Shown: positions 22,601 through 28,072 of the stretch, piece after piece
Layout of the letters: each line of letters begins with the position of its first letter
Position numbering within the stretch: the first letter of the stretch is position 1
Assembly: GCA_029821755.1 (NCBI GenBank)
Contig: JALGSV010000036.1
Span: forward strand, 1-34,766
From: Candidatus Zipacnadum vermilionense
GTDB taxonomy: Bacteria; Armatimonadota; Zipacnadia; Zipacnadales; Zipacnadaceae
Direction of reading: 5' to 3'
DNA: 34,766 nt
The notes under the pieces: generated by a model
The model's input: the letters and a program-made list of their open reading frames with translations, nothing else
What the model was told of the DNA's origin: nothing
Databases searched by the model: none
Position numbers and translations under genes: made by a program

Positions 22601-22818
22601 CGCACGTAGAGAGCCTCTTCGCCGCCATGGGTGATCTTGCGGCGGGCGCCAAGCTGGTAGGCGCTGGCGCTGGCGGCTTCATGGAAACAGTGGCGAGAGA
22701 CGAAGGAGCCGCCGAGCGGATAAGAGAACGGCTAACCCCGCTCCTGAAGGCCCGCGACGGCCGCTTCTATGAGGTAGAGATTGACGAGGAAGGCCTGGTG
22801 GGGGAGAGGTCGGTCTGA
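19666..22818 (+). CDS. fkp: Bifunctional L-fucokinase / GDP-L-fucose pyrophosphorylase (FKP-like)
   Basis: A 1050-residue fusion that salvages free L-fucose to GDP-L-fucose in two steps, as in Bacteroides Fkp and plant FKGP. The N-terminal half carries the nucleotidyltransferase-like fucokinase/pyrophosphorylase family motifs: LGSGGAAAYAL (about 74-84), NSGGDSKRIP (106-115), VVILSGDVLLGF and TGLLAFDAEA. The C-terminal GHMP kinase domain has PARVDFGGGWSDTPP (about 694-708), the ATP-binding GSGLGTSSIAA (813-823) and GAGAGGFMETV (about 1000). The ATG at 19666 starts eight bases after the preceding stop. Length matches the family (~950-1080). It implies fucose in the polymer of this locus, with fucose taken from outside or recycled. 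The kinase and transferase could act on a related 6-deoxy or heptose sugar, but FKP is the best fit. Confidence 0.9.
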   Translation: MTTNLPGIIRANRDRFVRQIYGDAAAGWDYVVLTASHERQAAAYRREIERYLHAGWLPSGAEYLVIPDPEGRHLGSGGAAAYALRAVAEHWTASPGAAFPRVLLVNSGGDSKRIPHCATFGKAFAGLPFPLFPGGPRSTAFTELLVSVCGLPECVGPGVVILSGDVLLGFDPAGFIPGSGVTGLACLTSWKLAARHGVYVCSPEGGPVQGFLQKPTQAQMREAGALLGENAFLDTGLLAFDAEAARRLASLAGVDWQSDGVTFTPGVLDQEGAEQAQIDLYTEVCLTLAGRPPQVVRDQVVCGQDTASLPPGPRRVQEQAIAAVQGLGFSVVAPRPVSFVHLGTTREWLTFCTGQDSSAGLYAPDRPSISDQESLVGRLTASAPAAVEYCRLPWLEVGEGSVVSGVEGDDGLAVPADTVLCLVPLVPEVAEEEAWVAQIYGVDDNPKALFSERKATFLGLPLADWLEQRALCPDDLWPDIPSASRCLWNARFFVSGGQRETLGWAHWLLSPGSAEETREWLTCPRLSFEDSLQRSDPEATQRYRARLSGQRVGQRLVSTIQGEEPATPLFASLGSAGEIAEAAGALLRHLEAESDPFRRARAYQVLSDLLGDPRLQRVLTTESGPPGGEVTAAVRELLFRFTRRRFATPFVAARWLEDEAFAEVSAAVAAGVPSLEATCVADLIPGAAATVRAPARVDFGGGWSDTPPFSLEWGGAVLNAGITLDGARPILARSEVLAEPVIELVSTDAGMKQTIVEATDLMTYGPGDPLALHKAAIIMSGLAGPGPGGDLPAFLRDCGGGLRLETRIDLPQGSGLGTSSIAATALLRCLDLLQDRPFALEDLSGRVLYLEQMITTGGGWQDQLGGMVPGLKLLETDPGQAQLPRVSSVALSPTTAEELRRRLLICFVGERRVAKNILHQIVRRYLARAPEVVRVLHEIKVIAREMKAALEAGDLDEFGALMARHWRLNKIMDRQTTTAHVESLFAAMGDLAAGAKLVGAGAGGFMETVARDEGAAERIRERLTPLLKARDGRFYEVEIDEEGLVGERSV

Positions 22819-22898
22819 AGGAGGGGCCGCATCGAGTGGGGGCGCGCTGTTTGCGCGAAAAACGTGCCTGTCCCTTGTGCCTCCCCCGCGCCTCACTC

Positions 22899-22927
22899 TT
22901 GACGCCGGCCACCTCTCCGGCGACAAT
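22899..22927 (+). promoter_or_regulatory. Promoter upstream of the antitoxin-like ORF and UroD-family gene
   Basis: TTGACG (22899-22904) and GACAAT (22922-22927) are 17 bases apart, with five and four consensus matches. A CGCGC-TGTTT-GCGCG hairpin at 22843-22857, after the fucose gene, may separate the two transcription units. The predicted transcript would begin about 12 bases before the ATG at 22946. Confidence 0.55.
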
Positions 22928-22945
22928 GCCTCTCCGGTGCTTACC

Positions 22946-23068
22946 ATGCCCACCCACCTCCCCACAACCGAAGCCAAACGCCGCTTCTCCGCCCTGCTCC
23001 GCGAGGTGGGGGAGAGGGGGGAGCATTTCATCCTCACCCACCATGGCCGCCCGGTATCCCTCACATGA
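22946..23068 (+). pseudogene. Truncated Phd/YefM-type antitoxin ORF
   Basis: A 40-residue ORF whose sequence follows the N-terminal DNA-binding part of Phd/YefM antitoxins: TTEAKRRFSALLREV, then HFILTHHGRPVSL, corresponding to the family's EAK..L..LL..V and ITRHGRPVA motifs. Full antitoxins are about 75-90 residues; here the toxin-binding tail is missing, and no toxin gene follows. The stop codon overlaps the ATG of the UroD-family gene (ATGA at 23065-23068). It may therefore be a remnant, or a short leader ORF coupling translation. It lies just after a decent promoter. The G-rich stretch at 23006-23021 resembles a motif repeated elsewhere in the window (7153, 22799, 27797). Confidence 0.6.
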
Positions 23069-24066
23069 ACCCCCAATACCACCTCGCCTTCTGTAACGTC
23101 ACTTACACCGAGTACGCCGGCGTCACCTACCGCGACTACTACGGCTCCCCAGCGGTGATGCTGGAGACTCAACTAGCCGCCCGGGATTACGCCGAGCGGC
23201 AGTGGGGCGTCGGCGGCTTCATCAACCCCATGGTCGACAGCCCCGGCTGCGCTGTCTCCTCCTACCTCGGCATGTCCGTCATCGAGCCCGCTGACACCGA
23301 CGAACTGGTCTACCTCGACAGCTCTCGCCCCGTCCTGCGCACTCTCGCCGACGTCGACTGTCTCGTCCCGGGCGACCCTCGCACCTCCGGCCTCCTGGCC
23401 CGCCGCTTCGAGGCGTGGCAGTACTACCGGGCCCACGGGTACCAGGTCGGCTTCGGGGGCGGAGGCGGCGAGAGCATGACCCTCGCCGGCGAGCTTAGCT
23501 CCGGTGCCGCCCTCGGCTGGCTGGCCGAGGACCCCGCCGGCGGCCACCACCTGCTGGACAAGATGGTCGAGGTCGAAGAAACCCTCTCCGCCTTCAGCGC
23601 CTCTCTGGTCGGCGAGGAGTACCGCGGCCTCTCTTACGTCGGCGATGACTTCGCCGGCCTGATGTCCCCCGCCATGTACCGGGAGTTCATGGTCCCGGCC
23701 TACCAGCGCCTGTACGCCGGGAACGAGCGCCGCTTCTTGCACAGTGAGCTGCTCCGCGCTGAACACCTGCGCATTTCCCGCGACGAGGTCGGCATCACCG
23801 AATTCCACGGCGCCGGCTGCAAGCTCCTGACGTTGCCGGAGATGTACGATATAATGGGGCACCGCTTCTGGACGCAGCTTACCCCGCAGGAGATGCTGGA
23901 GCTGACGCCCGCCCAGATCAGCGACCGGGTCAGCGAGTTGGTCCAATGCGGCGCCGGCTGGCTCCAGCTCTACCCCAGCCGCGGCACTCCCGAGGCCAAC
24001 ATGGAGGCCGCTATCACTGCCGCCCGGCGCGAATGCACCGGCGGCCCCAGCTGGGAGAATCCGTAG
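23065..24066 (+). CDS. Uroporphyrinogen decarboxylase (URO-D) family protein
   Basis: A 333-residue (alpha/beta)8-type protein of the URO-D superfamily, which includes HemE and corrinoid-linked methyltransferases (MtaA/CmuA). The recognisable part is YVGDDFAGLMSPAMYREFMVPAYQRLY (about 191-217), the family's D-D-x-G...S-P-x-x-(F/Y)-x-x-F-x-x-P block. A C-terminal GAGWLQLYPSRGTPEANMEAAI region follows, as in methyltransferase-like and catabolic paralogues. The arginine-rich N-terminal motif of true HemE is absent, and the protein is not in a haem operon, so haem synthesis is unlikely. Numerous such paralogues of unknown function lie near sugar-degradation genes in environmental bacteria. The start ATG at 23065 overlaps the stop of the antitoxin-like ORF. 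Confidence 0.8.
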   Translation: MNPQYHLAFCNVTYTEYAGVTYRDYYGSPAVMLETQLAARDYAERQWGVGGFINPMVDSPGCAVSSYLGMSVIEPADTDELVYLDSSRPVLRTLADVDCLVPGDPRTSGLLARRFEAWQYYRAHGYQVGFGGGGGESMTLAGELSSGAALGWLAEDPAGGHHLLDKMVEVEETLSAFSASLVGEEYRGLSYVGDDFAGLMSPAMYREFMVPAYQRLYAGNERRFLHSELLRAEHLRISRDEVGITEFHGAGCKLLTLPEMYDIMGHRFWTQLTPQEMLELTPAQISDRVSELVQCGAGWLQLYPSRGTPEANMEAAITAARRECTGGPSWENP

Positions 24067-24130
24067 CCATCCCTCAAACCTCCCCGCAGTTTTACCCGTC
24101 CAATGTAATGAAGAACCCTCCACGGAACAC

Positions 24131-24159
24131 TTGACTTTCCGCTCCAACCGGGGCACAAT
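24131..24159 (+). promoter_or_regulatory. Promoter of the 2Fe-2S / two-component operon
   Basis: TTGACT (24131-24136), 17 bases, CACAAT (24154-24159). The -35 matches five and the -10 four of six consensus bases. A further TTGACA lies at 24165-24170. Transcription from here would give an untranslated leader of about 125 bases containing the hairpin at 24208-24256. Confidence 0.5.
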
Positions 24160-24207
24160 AAACGTTGACAACATCCACAACTCGTTCCATACGGGTCATG
24201 ACTCTTT

Positions 24208-24256
24208 AGGGCCTTTAGCTCGCGCAGAGCGCGCTTGCTGGATGGCCCTCTTTTTT
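24208..24256 (+). terminator. Attenuator-like hairpin with T6 in the operon leader
   Basis: AGGGCC (24208-24213) pairs with GGCCCT (24244-24249), with GC-rich complementary inner segments (CGCGC / GCGCG around 24220-24235), and is followed by CTTTTTT (24250-24256). This intrinsic-terminator layout stands 35 bases before the start of the first gene and after the probable promoter. It is therefore either the end of the UroD transcript or an attenuator for the signalling operon. Confidence 0.6.
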
Positions 24257-24290
24257 GGGTATGGAAGTTGCGTTCGGGAGAGATCGCATC

Positions 24291-24560
24291 GTGGTCGATA
24301 TCAGTCTGATCGTTGGCAACCTTCCTATCAGCGTGCCGGCCGGCGCGACTATCATGGAAGCCACCGAGCAAGCCGATATCCGCGTCCCTCTCCTTTGCCA
24401 CCACCCCTCCCTCGGCATTCAAAGTTCCTGCCGTGTCCGCCTTGTTGAGGTCGAGGGCGCGCGCGACCTCGACGCCTCCTGCCGCTACCCCGCGGCTGAG
24501 GGCATGGTCGTCCACGCCGCCATCGCCCCGGGCCTGGTCCGCTCCCCCGCCGTTCAGTAG
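24291..24560 (+). CDS. NuoG-type 2Fe-2S ferredoxin-domain protein lacking one cysteine ligand
   Basis: An 89-residue protein with the fold seen at the N-terminus of NuoG, formate dehydrogenase and Fe-hydrogenases. GNLPISVPAGATIMEA is followed by a cysteine region with residues at 36, 47 and 64 and RLVEVEGARDLDASC. The family pattern is C-x10-C-x2-C-x13-C; here the third position is arginine 50 (CGC at 24438-24440), one transition away from a cysteine codon. Cluster binding is therefore doubtful or uses another ligand. I start at the GTG at 24291, which has GGGAG about ten bases upstream; an ATG at 24255 is in frame but would lie within the hairpin's T run. It is nine bases before a sensor kinase, suggesting a redox-linked or formerly redox-linked sensory role. 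Confidence 0.78.
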   Translation: MVDISLIVGNLPISVPAGATIMEATEQADIRVPLLCHHPSLGIQSSCRVRLVEVEGARDLDASCRYPAAEGMVVHAAIAPGLVRSPAVQ

Positions 24561-24569
24561 ACGCTCAAT

Positions 24570-26543
24570 ATGGATGCTCCCCTTCGCACCAAGCTACTCA
24601 TCGCCTTCGTCGCCGTGGCCTTCCTCGGTGGTCTCCTCACTACTGTGGCCGGCACCGTGCTGATCAACCGCCTGGTGGTCAGCGAGGCCCAGCGGCGCAT
24701 GGAACTGGGCCTCAAAACCGCCCGCGCCACTCTCGATCAGGAGGTCGCCAACGGCTTGCGCGTGACCGGGGTGCTCGCGTCCTGGTCGGCCCAGGGCGGC
24801 GGCGACCCCATCGACGGCCTCACCAAGTCCTTCCTGGAGCGCCTCCGTGTGGACAACTCCCTCGACCTGCTCCAGATCGTCGATAGCAACGGCACTGTCG
24901 CGCTCACCTCTCGCGGCCAAGCCACCGGCCGCCAGGCGGATAGCCCTCTGGTCCAGGCCGCTCTCCGGCAGGGCAGCGCCGGATCCGGGCTCCGTTTAGT
25001 ACCGATCAGGGAACTGGCCATTGAGAGTCCGCAACTCGCCGCTAAAGCCAACATCGAGATTCGCGAGACCGCTCGCGCCAAGGCCATCCCGGTCGAGCCG
25101 CTGCGCGACGCCATGATCATCGAGACCGTCTCACCCATCATTCAGCCCCCCGGCAAGATCATCGGCGTGGTCCGCTCCGGCGTAGTCCTCAACCAGGACT
25201 ACTCCCTGGTCGACCTCATCCGCGAGGACATTTTCACCACCACCACCTACCAGGGACGCAACCTAGGCACAGTCACCATCTTCCAGCGCGATGTGCGCGT
25301 CGCCACTAACGTCACCGATGAGCGCGGCGAGCGCGCCATCGGCACCCGCGTTTCCGCGGAGGTCTACGATCGCGTCCTGGGCGAGGGCAAGGTCTGGATC
25401 GGCCCCGCCCTGGTAGTCAATAACTGGTACATTTCGGCCTACGAGCCCCTGCGCGATATCGATAACCAAACCATCGGCATCCTCTATGTTGGCGTCCTCA
25501 AGCAGCGTTACGACGACATGCGCAGCCAGGCCCTGGCTATCTTCCTGCTCATCGCTGTCATCGCTATGGCCCTGGCCGTTAGCGTCGCCTACTTCCTGGC
25601 CTGGCGCCTGGCGCGCCCCCTTACCAGCCTGACCCGCGCCGCCGAGGCTATCGCCCGCGGCGACCTGCAATACCATCTAGCCGAGCCTCGAAGCGCCGCC
25701 CGCGACGAAACCAAAGCCCTCCTGGTCACCTTCAACCGCATGATGGCGGCCCTTCGCGAGCGCGACGAGCAACTCCGCCGCTCCTACGATCGCCTACAGG
25801 CCACCACTCAGGAGCTGCACCGCTGGAACCAGAACTACCTGGAGACGCTCGAGTTCATCACTCACGAGTTGAAGAACCAAGTCGCCGCCATGAAGCTCAA
25901 CGTCCTGGCTGTCCGCGACGGCTACGTCGGTGCCGTCACGCCCGACCAGCACGAGGCCCTGGAGGACATCGCCTCTACCCTGCGCCGCACCGAGGAGATG
26001 ATCCTCAACTACCTGAACCTGTCGCGCATTGAGAAGGGTGAGCTGGAGGTCCGCGCCCGCCCGGTGCAGATCGAGCGCGACGTCCTGGACACGGTGCTCC
26101 GCGAGGTCCATGGTCGCTTGGACGATGACCAGATCACCGTCGAGGTCAACCTCCCGGAGGACCTCATCGCCCAGGCCGACCCTTCCTTGCTACAGATTGT
26201 CTTCGCCAACCTGGTCGGTAACGCGGCCAAGTACGGCCGCCCCGGAGGACGCCTCCGTATCTTCGGCGAACTTGGCCAAGATCGGGTCGAGGTCCATGTC
26301 TGGAACGATGGCCCCGGCGTGCCCCAGGAGGAGAGCGAGATGCTCTTCCAGCGCTTCTCGCGCCTCTCCAGCGGTGAGGTCAAAGAACGCGGTACTGGCC
26401 TGGGCCTATTCATAGCCCGTGAGATAGTCCGCCGGCACGGCGGCGAACTGCGTGTGGAAAGCGAATACCCGCAGTGGATCGATTTCGTCATCACCCTCCC
26501 CCGCGCCGACGTAGTCAGCGAGGGAGTGAATCTGATCGGATAG
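24570..26543 (+). CDS. Sensor histidine kinase: Cache-HAMP-HisKA-HATPase
   Basis: A 657-residue membrane kinase. Transmembrane segment 1 is at about 9-32. The extracytoplasmic region, about 35-315, resembles the Cache_3-Cache_2 fusion domain (GTRVSAEVYDRVLGEGKVWIG followed by NNWYISAYEPLRD and TIGILYVGV). Transmembrane segment 2 is at 321-344 and HAMP at 345-400. The phosphoacceptor region has histidine 432 in ITHELKNQVAAMKLN; the usual proline after the H-box (HELRxP) is missing. The ATPase domain has FANLVGNAAKYG (N551), WNDGPGVP (D580), LFQRFSRL and GTGLGLFIAREIV (608-620). It likely senses a small ligand such as an organic acid outside the membrane and passes phosphate to a regulator, perhaps the REC domain encoded next. 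It lies nine bases after the ferredoxin-like gene, without a clear ribosome binding site. Confidence 0.93.
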   Translation: MDAPLRTKLLIAFVAVAFLGGLLTTVAGTVLINRLVVSEAQRRMELGLKTARATLDQEVANGLRVTGVLASWSAQGGGDPIDGLTKSFLERLRVDNSLDLLQIVDSNGTVALTSRGQATGRQADSPLVQAALRQGSAGSGLRLVPIRELAIESPQLAAKANIEIRETARAKAIPVEPLRDAMIIETVSPIIQPPGKIIGVVRSGVVLNQDYSLVDLIREDIFTTTTYQGRNLGTVTIFQRDVRVATNVTDERGERAIGTRVSAEVYDRVLGEGKVWIGPALVVNNWYISAYEPLRDIDNQTIGILYVGVLKQRYDDMRSQALAIFLLIAVIAMALAVSVAYFLAWRLARPLTSLTRAAEAIARGDLQYHLAEPRSAARDETKALLVTFNRMMAALRERDEQLRRSYDRLQATTQELHRWNQNYLETLEFITHELKNQVAAMKLNVLAVRDGYVGAVTPDQHEALEDIASTLRRTEEMILNYLNLSRIEKGELEVRARPVQIERDVLDTVLREVHGRLDDDQITVEVNLPEDLIAQADPSLLQIVFANLVGNAAKYGRPGGRLRIFGELGQDRVEVHVWNDGPGVPQEESEMLFQRFSRLSSGEVKERGTGLGLFIAREIVRRHGGELRVESEYPQWIDFVITLPRADVVSEGVNLIG

Positions 26544-26560
26544 GAGAAAAACCTCACCCC

Positions 26561-28072
26561 TTGGCTCCCTCCCTGCCCGACAAAATCCTCATCATCGACG
26601 ACGAGATCGGCATCCGCCAGGGCTGCCGGCGCGTCCTGGGCGCTGAGGGCTACGAGGTGCTCCTCGCCGAGACCGCTGAGCGGGGCCTGGAGGTTCTGGC
26701 CGCCAACCTCGACGTCTCCCTCACCCTCGTCGACCTGAAGATGCCCGGTATGGGTGGCCTTGAGTACCTCCCCCGCGCTGCCGAGATCACCTCCGAGATG
26801 GCCTCCGTGGTCATCACCGCTTACGCCACCATCGAGACCGCGGTCGAGGCCACCAAACGCGGGGCCTACGACTTCATGGTTAAGCCTTTCGCGCCCGACG
26901 ATCTCCTCCGCATCACTCACAAGGCCCTCCAGCACGTCCGCTTGATCAAGGAACGCAACCGCCTCCAGGCCGAGCAGGAGCGCCGCCTCCTCGAGTTGGC
27001 CACGGAGCAGAGCCGTCTGCGCGTCATCATCAACGCCATGGCCGAGGGCGTCCTGGTCGCCAATGCCGAGGGTTCTCTGGTCCTGTGGAACCCCGCCGCC
27101 TTGCGCGTCCTCCCCCGCTGTGACCCGGGCATGGAAGTCTGCTCGCTGGAGCGTGTCATCGAGCCTCCGGCCCTACTGGAGTTGATGACCCAGGCCGCCG
27201 CCGAGCGCCAGCGCCTCACCCGCGAGATCAACCTCACCCATCTCTTGGCGCCTACCTGGGTCCTCGCCGACGTCGCCCCGGTTGTCGAGGAAGACTCCAG
27301 CGCCCTGCTCGGCACCGTCACCCTCCTACGCGACATCACCGAGCTCAAGCGCGTCGAGCAGATCAAGGCCCAATTCGTCAACATGGTCGCCCACGAACTG
27401 CGCTCCCCCCTGGCCGCCATCGATGGCTACCTCGCGCTCATGCAGGCCGGCATTGTCGAGGACCCCACCAAGCAGGCGGAGATGGTCGTCCGCTCCCGCG
27501 TACGCCTCAAGGCCCTGCTCGACCTCGTCGGCGACCTGCTCAACGTAGCCCGCATGGAGGCCGGCACCGTCCAGCGTGAGATCGTCCCCCAGAACCTGGC
27601 GGAGGTGCTCGCCGAGGTCGTCGAGATCATGACCCCGCTGGCGGCGGAACGCAGCTTGACCTTCCAGGTCGAGGTCCCCCCCGACCTCTCCCCGGTAGAG
27701 GCCGACAAAGAGGAGCTAATCTGCCTCTTCAACAACTTGGTCAGCAACGCCCTCAAGTACAACCGGGAGGGCGGGAAGGTAAGTATAGTGGGGGAGAGGG
27801 AGGAGCCGTACGTCAAACTGGCGATCGCCGACACCGGCATAGGCATCAGCGAGGAGAGCCAGCGCCATCTGTTCGTCGAGTTCTTCCGCGAGAAGCGCTC
27901 CGAAAACCGCTACGTAACCGGCACCGGCCTAGGCCTAAGCATAGTCAAGCGCATCCTCGACTTTTACCACGGCCACCTCCAGGTAGAGAGCACCTTGGGC
28001 GAGGGTACCACCTTCACCCTTTGGCTCCCCTGCCAGTACCAATCCACGCCCGCGCCCCCGGCCCCTCGGTAG
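26561..28072 (+). CDS. REC-PAS-histidine kinase (response-regulator/kinase hybrid)
   Basis: A soluble signalling protein of about 503 residues. An N-terminal receiver (about 8-125) has KILIIDDE, phosphoacceptor D58 (LVDLKMPGMGG), TAYA and lysine 108 (MVKPF). A coiled linker is followed by a PAS-like region (about 150-260, VIINAMAEGVLVANAEG, ending TVTLLRDITELKR). HisKA has histidine 279 (FVNMVAHELRSPLAAI). The ATPase domain has NNLVSNALKYN (N396), IADTGIGIS (D424) and GTGLGLSIVKRIL. The start is uncertain: the only in-frame candidate after the previous stop is TTG at 26561, with GGAG 14 bases upstream. It probably receives phosphate from the upstream Cache kinase and relays it onward; no DNA-binding output is encoded next to it. 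Confidence 0.9.
   Translation: MAPSLPDKILIIDDEIGIRQGCRRVLGAEGYEVLLAETAERGLEVLAANLDVSLTLVDLKMPGMGGLEYLPRAAEITSEMASVVITAYATIETAVEATKRGAYDFMVKPFAPDDLLRITHKALQHVRLIKERNRLQAEQERRLLELATEQSRLRVIINAMAEGVLVANAEGSLVLWNPAALRVLPRCDPGMEVCSLERVIEPPALLELMTQAAAERQRLTREINLTHLLAPTWVLADVAPVVEEDSSALLGTVTLLRDITELKRVEQIKAQFVNMVAHELRSPLAAIDGYLALMQAGIVEDPTKQAEMVVRSRVRLKALLDLVGDLLNVARMEAGTVQREIVPQNLAEVLAEVVEIMTPLAAERSLTFQVEVPPDLSPVEADKEELICLFNNLVSNALKYNREGGKVSIVGEREEPYVKLAIADTGIGISEESQRHLFVEFFREKRSENRYVTGTGLGLSIVKRILDFYHGHLQVESTLGEGTTFTLWLPCQYQSTPAPPAPR

Follow-up and report, generated by a model that had tools for sequence, protein, structure and literature searches.

An ORF with an incomplete 2Fe-2S ligand set before two sensor kinases of Candidatus Zipacnadum vermilionense is probably a decaying remnant of an [FeFe] hydrogenase gene

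The closest described counterpart of the gene analysed here is HydA of the NADH-dependent [FeFe] hydrogenases (NF040763, group A6; HydABC/Hnd type), a protein of about 590 residues that carries 4Fe-4S domains and an H-cluster domain in addition to its N-terminal Fer2_4 domain. [FeFe] hydrogenase gene clusters such as the BfuABC/HydABC clusters of Hydrogenedentota have been described as subject to transfer, gains and losses (PMC11406978), and in what that paper says of these clusters no N-terminal HydA stub before retained kinases is described. We found no paper on hydrogenase stubs preceding retained kinases, nor one on cysteine-to-arginine ligand changes in NuoG-type domains. A second point of comparison is provided by the gene remnants left after partial operon deletion. 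The ORF described below resembles them in its truncation at one end, its accelerated divergence, its loss of invariant residues and the absence of its partners, but differs from them in that its frame is still open and a role as a leader may remain.

The ORF lies in a stretch of 34,766 nucleotides (the window) and encodes 89 aa (24291-24560, on the forward strand like the promoter, leader hairpin and two kinase genes given below). It starts with a GTG directly preceded by a ribosome-binding-like GGGAGA, and its residues 1-76 are homologous to the N-terminal 2Fe-2S domain of HydA. It scored 48.6 bits against Pfam Fer2_4 (cut-off 22.8; E 8.7e-13), its top NCBIfam model was the N-terminus of the group A6 (NADH-dependent) [FeFe] hydrogenases (E 2.1e-18, residues 5-76), and its PDB matches were NuoG/NDUFS1 and HydA chains, with E values down to 6e-13. 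Since these matches are significant, the ORF is a genuine homologue and not a chance motif. The preliminary description, which had proposed a NuoG-type 2Fe-2S domain, was therefore right about the domain type, and the reading frame confirmed the ligand spacing that it gave: with C36 (24396-24398), C47 (24429-24431) and C64 (24480-24482) the ORF has the pattern C-x10-C-x2-R-x13-C, so the NuoG-type set C-x10-C-x2-C-x13-C is incomplete. The third of the four cluster-cysteine positions, codon 50, is indeed CGC (24438-24440) and encodes arginine, while a cysteine stands opposite R50 in all the aligned homologues retrieved (43/43). Judged from this sequence, the product is not expected to hold a normal [2Fe-2S] cluster, and its reading as a cluster-bearing sensor protein is unlikely. 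Homology is not recognisable in residues 77-89. Comparison of these residues by eye with the nuoE end and the region before the first kinase in relatives revealed no recognisable match, and they had the lowest confidence in an AlphaFold prediction of the ORF, a poor model (pLDDT 60) made from a three-row alignment.

The best matches of the ORF were residues 1-76 of HydA proteins of about 590 residues (47-56% identity, mostly 49-56%; E 1e-25 to 1e-19), and the two other Fer2 proteins of the same genome were merely 40% and 37% identical to it. A tree built from 44 Fer2 domains grouped the ORF with the kinase-linked hydA genes in one clade (support 82/91), a position obtained from 84 columns and with a long branch. 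The nearest relatives of the ORF are the N-termini of kinase-linked HydA proteins, and its place is syntenic with theirs. Compared with HydA, it has the same Fer2_4 domain, the same ligand spacing and the same place before the first kinase, but it comprises just the first ~76 of ~590 residues, has an arginine instead of a cysteine as third ligand and, since it ends at 89 aa, lacks the accessory 4Fe-4S domains and the H-cluster domain with its cysteine motifs. What had been taken for a free-standing domain matches the front of a longer protein, the remainder of which is gone. Searches of first 61 and then 291 phylum genomes gave no other free-standing copy of the domain, the short frames inspected sitting at contig ends, and a single sequence scan of genome contigs returned just Fer2 domains at 37% identity from two deltaproteobacterial genomes. 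A free-standing family beside kinases was also considered and was rejected, as the 291 phylum genomes contain no further member.

The kinase-linked HydAs that we read (L005, L008, L010, L011, L012, L013, L019, L020) have unusual H-cluster motifs, TSCCPTW / MCCTCKK / MGCPGGC. Several sister HydAs (compare L006, L009, L014-L017) and a second HydA of the window genome, on contig C62, have TSCCPGW / MPCTAKK / MACPGGC. From their sequences, the kinase-linked HydAs may form, within the [FeFe] hydrogenases, a subgroup that has sensor kinases of its own.

Nine base pairs past the stop codon of the ORF begins HK1 (24570-26543), an intact sensor histidine kinase with the architecture sCache_3_3-HAMP-HisKA-HATPase_c (assigned by Pfam, orthologues and a tree). 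It is followed by HK2 (26474-28072), an intact response regulator-PAS-histidine kinase (Pfam and orthologues). The mechanically assigned start of the HK2 ORF overlaps the end of HK1, and the gene probably begins near 26543. A search with HK1 identified orthologues in 15 further genomes (48-76% identity); the HK2 orthologues are 55-74% identical and the order is conserved in relatives. A related hydA co-occurs with HK1 in 8 of these 15 genomes, in 7 of them on one contig (G025, G019, G045, G020, G043, G021 and G026). In these seven, the HK1 orthologue is preceded at a short distance by hydA and followed further downstream, wherever the sequence extends far enough, by HK2; in the eighth, G044, the N-terminus of hydA is on another contig, and its C-terminal part is followed without a break by nuoE and HK1. 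HK1 is shortened in G021 and G026, where the Cache sensor part is missing.

The DNA around the HK1 orthologues revealed the operon order hydA-nuoE-HK1-RR-nuoF-HK2, with a HydA of 590 aa, a NuoE-like protein of 178 aa, a response regulator (RR) of ~133 aa and a NuoF-like protein of ~632 aa. Here hydA encodes the catalytic subunit of an NADH-linked, probably electron-bifurcating [FeFe] hydrogenase, and some of the loci run on into sequence whose translation, by eye, resembles a HydE or HydG maturase. Thus, the kinases that had been proposed to form a redox-sensing module with a free-standing ferredoxin domain have their orthologues in a hydrogenase operon of related genera. HK1-HK2 pairs without a hydrogenase are found in G042, G020 (contig C386) and G017, and probably also in G022, whose contig begins inside HK1. 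The loci seen without an adjoining hydrogenase are L057, L058, L063 and L064, the last of which begins inside HK1. The pair therefore appears to occur both with and without a hydrogenase, and linkage to the enzyme is not necessarily the ancestral condition in all lineages.

Homology of the ORF to HydA ends at residue ~76. Neither the window genome as assembled nor the other two genus members yielded the remaining ~515 HydA residues or the nuoE and nuoF of the kinase-linked operon. In these three genomes (G000, the window genome, G001 and G002), the closest matches to HydA beyond residue 79, NuoE and NuoF belong to other hydrogenase-type operons (34-62%), in the window genome to a separate complete operon on contig C62 (HydA 49%, NuoE 39%, NuoF 60%). 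This second trimeric hydrogenase operon (nuoE-like, nuoF-like and hydA genes; 7767-13283 of L081, G000:C62:45000-60129) has downstream a gene for an iron-sulphur protein resembling part of HydA. In the window, HK1 and HK2 also lack the small response regulator between them. As in the window, the HK1 and HK2 of G001 have neither the response regulator nor nuoF between them, the contig ending inside HK1. In G002, HK1 has no HK2 beside it and no Fer2 domain or hydrogenase upstream, which argues that the genus is losing the kinase-linked hydrogenase operon. Note that the DNA directly before HK1 in G002 (L052:1-1204) holds CRISPR-like repeats (GTTTCAATCCACGCCCCCGCGCGGGGGGCGAC) in a short array, along with a direct repeat of 219 bp.

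In the Fer2 tree the ORF has an end branch of 0.84, against a median of 0.14. Because the whole lineage may evolve fast, its distances were scaled by those of HK1. The Fer2/HK1 distance ratio was 0.97-1.35 (mean 1.14) for pairs that include the window and 0.38-1.01 (mean 0.64, sd 0.15) among the genomes with an intact hydA; these pairs share genomes and are not independent, so no P value is attached. Moreover, 16 of 77 residues of the ORF are unseen in 24 members of the clade, each of which has 1-10 such residues versus the rest. As this leaves 15 unseen residues besides R50, the C50R change does not resemble a lone base error. Two of the 17 invariant columns are broken (G45S and C50R) and 15 are kept, a count indistinguishable from a random placement of the 16 changes (P 0.25). 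The frame contains no stops and no frameshifts, and its codon preference is near normal (0.37, versus 0.46 ± 0.09 for equal-sized pieces of HK1); in simulation, a modest number of mutations free of constraint still allowed an open frame and coding-like codon use. With the frame open, codon preference near normal and 15 of the invariant positions remaining, the decay is not extreme. By these comparisons, constraint on the protein is relaxed relative to the intact copies, though not necessarily lost altogether. Of the three options in the preliminary description (an unusual cluster, a cluster-free interaction domain or a very recent inactivation), the evidence favours inactivation; that it was very recent is not supported, the accelerated divergence running along the whole ORF. 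Neither an unusual cluster nor a dedicated redox-sensing module drew support from the comparisons.

A predicted promoter (TTGACT-17-CACAAT, 24131-24159; a consensus match) lies 160 bp before the ORF and is the sole sigma-70-like site within 23900-24700, with none between the ORF and HK1. It is followed by a leader hairpin (24209-24248, -24 kcal/mol) and six T (24251-24256), terminator- or attenuator-like in form. Four relatives have comparable TTGACA-type promoters 150-195 bp (in one case 318 bp) before hydA, and in most of the relatives' hydA leaders a strong hairpin lies 5' of the start codon; since the leaders align poorly, the comparison with the window is positional. The leader of the ORF as a whole folds no better than shuffled sequences (z -1.4), and no Rfam family was found in it. 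An operon-head promoter and leader that now express two kinases would fit this arrangement. Several hydA leaders of relatives contain TTTCACAA or a full TTGTGA-N6-TCACAA element, which resembles a Rex operator. Such elements and strong hairpins precede hydA in L054, L055, L056, L059, L065, L066, L068 and L070, and three are full palindromes; in the window, a Rex-type operator was sought and none was found near the ORF. Upstream of the ORF, the window carries a URO-D family gene (23065-24066; a distant uroporphyrinogen decarboxylase or methyltransferase relative), itself preceded by a Phd/YefM antitoxin-like N-terminus (22781-23068) that scores below the Pfam cut-off.

Our results suggest that what survives of hydA here is its 5' end (~76 codons), the ORF being a truncated and decaying remnant before the retained kinases, a reading to which we give a probability of about 0.78. 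A deletion would have joined hydA codon ~76 to sequence just before HK1, and the other structural genes of the operon would have been lost while the promoter, the leader, HK1 and HK2 were retained. With the hydrogenase gone, constraint would have relaxed and C50R would have been tolerated; since the ORF is most likely the front end of a hydA whose other parts were deleted, the loss of the cysteine is an ordinary sign of decay. The stub would persist because both kinases are still expressed from the old operon's promoter and leader, and its frame, which ends 9 bp ahead of the ATG of HK1, may be kept open only for translational coupling into HK1.

This last point can be taken further, as a refinement of the hydA-remnant explanation and not as an exclusive alternative to it: the function of the leader alone could be kept, translation of the stub being coupled to HK1 or keeping the leader RNA open, whatever the sequence of the peptide. 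The promoter-like site and hairpin before the stub, the lack of such a site between it and HK1, the position of its stop codon and the combination of a relaxed protein sequence with an intact frame are all consistent with this. However, if neutral mutations have been few, chance alone would leave the frame unbroken (P 0.76 against stops for 20 mutations), and we propose the refinement tentatively.

Co-option of the stub under selection, as a small cluster-free or arginine-ligated protein that interacts with HK1 or HK2, is unlikely. Arginine is known as a [2Fe-2S] ligand in biotin synthase, and the open frame 9 bp before HK1, the Fer2_4 score well over the Pfam cut-off, the 15 of 17 invariant positions kept and the coding-like codon use would all suit such a protein. 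Against it, the stub has no orthologue in the phylum genomes searched and none before HK1 in G002, its divergence is accelerated, and the clade-invariant G45 next to the cluster loop has been lost too. That a former hydrogenase domain is now a free-standing kinase partner, holding a [2Fe-2S] cluster by three cysteines and an arginine or holding none, seems to us very improbable. Finally, although the draft genome consists of 115 contigs, an assembly artefact or consensus error, by which the deletion or the CGC codon would be absent from the organism, is very unlikely given that the junction lies within a contig, HK1 and HK2 of G001 likewise lack the response regulator and nuoF between them, the missing hydrogenase parts were found nowhere in three members of the genus, and the divergence is spread over the entire stub.

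The hydA-remnant reading serves mainly as a correction: the stub of a gene is the best explanation for what had the look of a redox-sensing module, exotic cluster included. In related genera, HK1 and HK2 are part of an [FeFe] hydrogenase operon, which suggests what their original regulatory target was; here, they outlast the enzyme.
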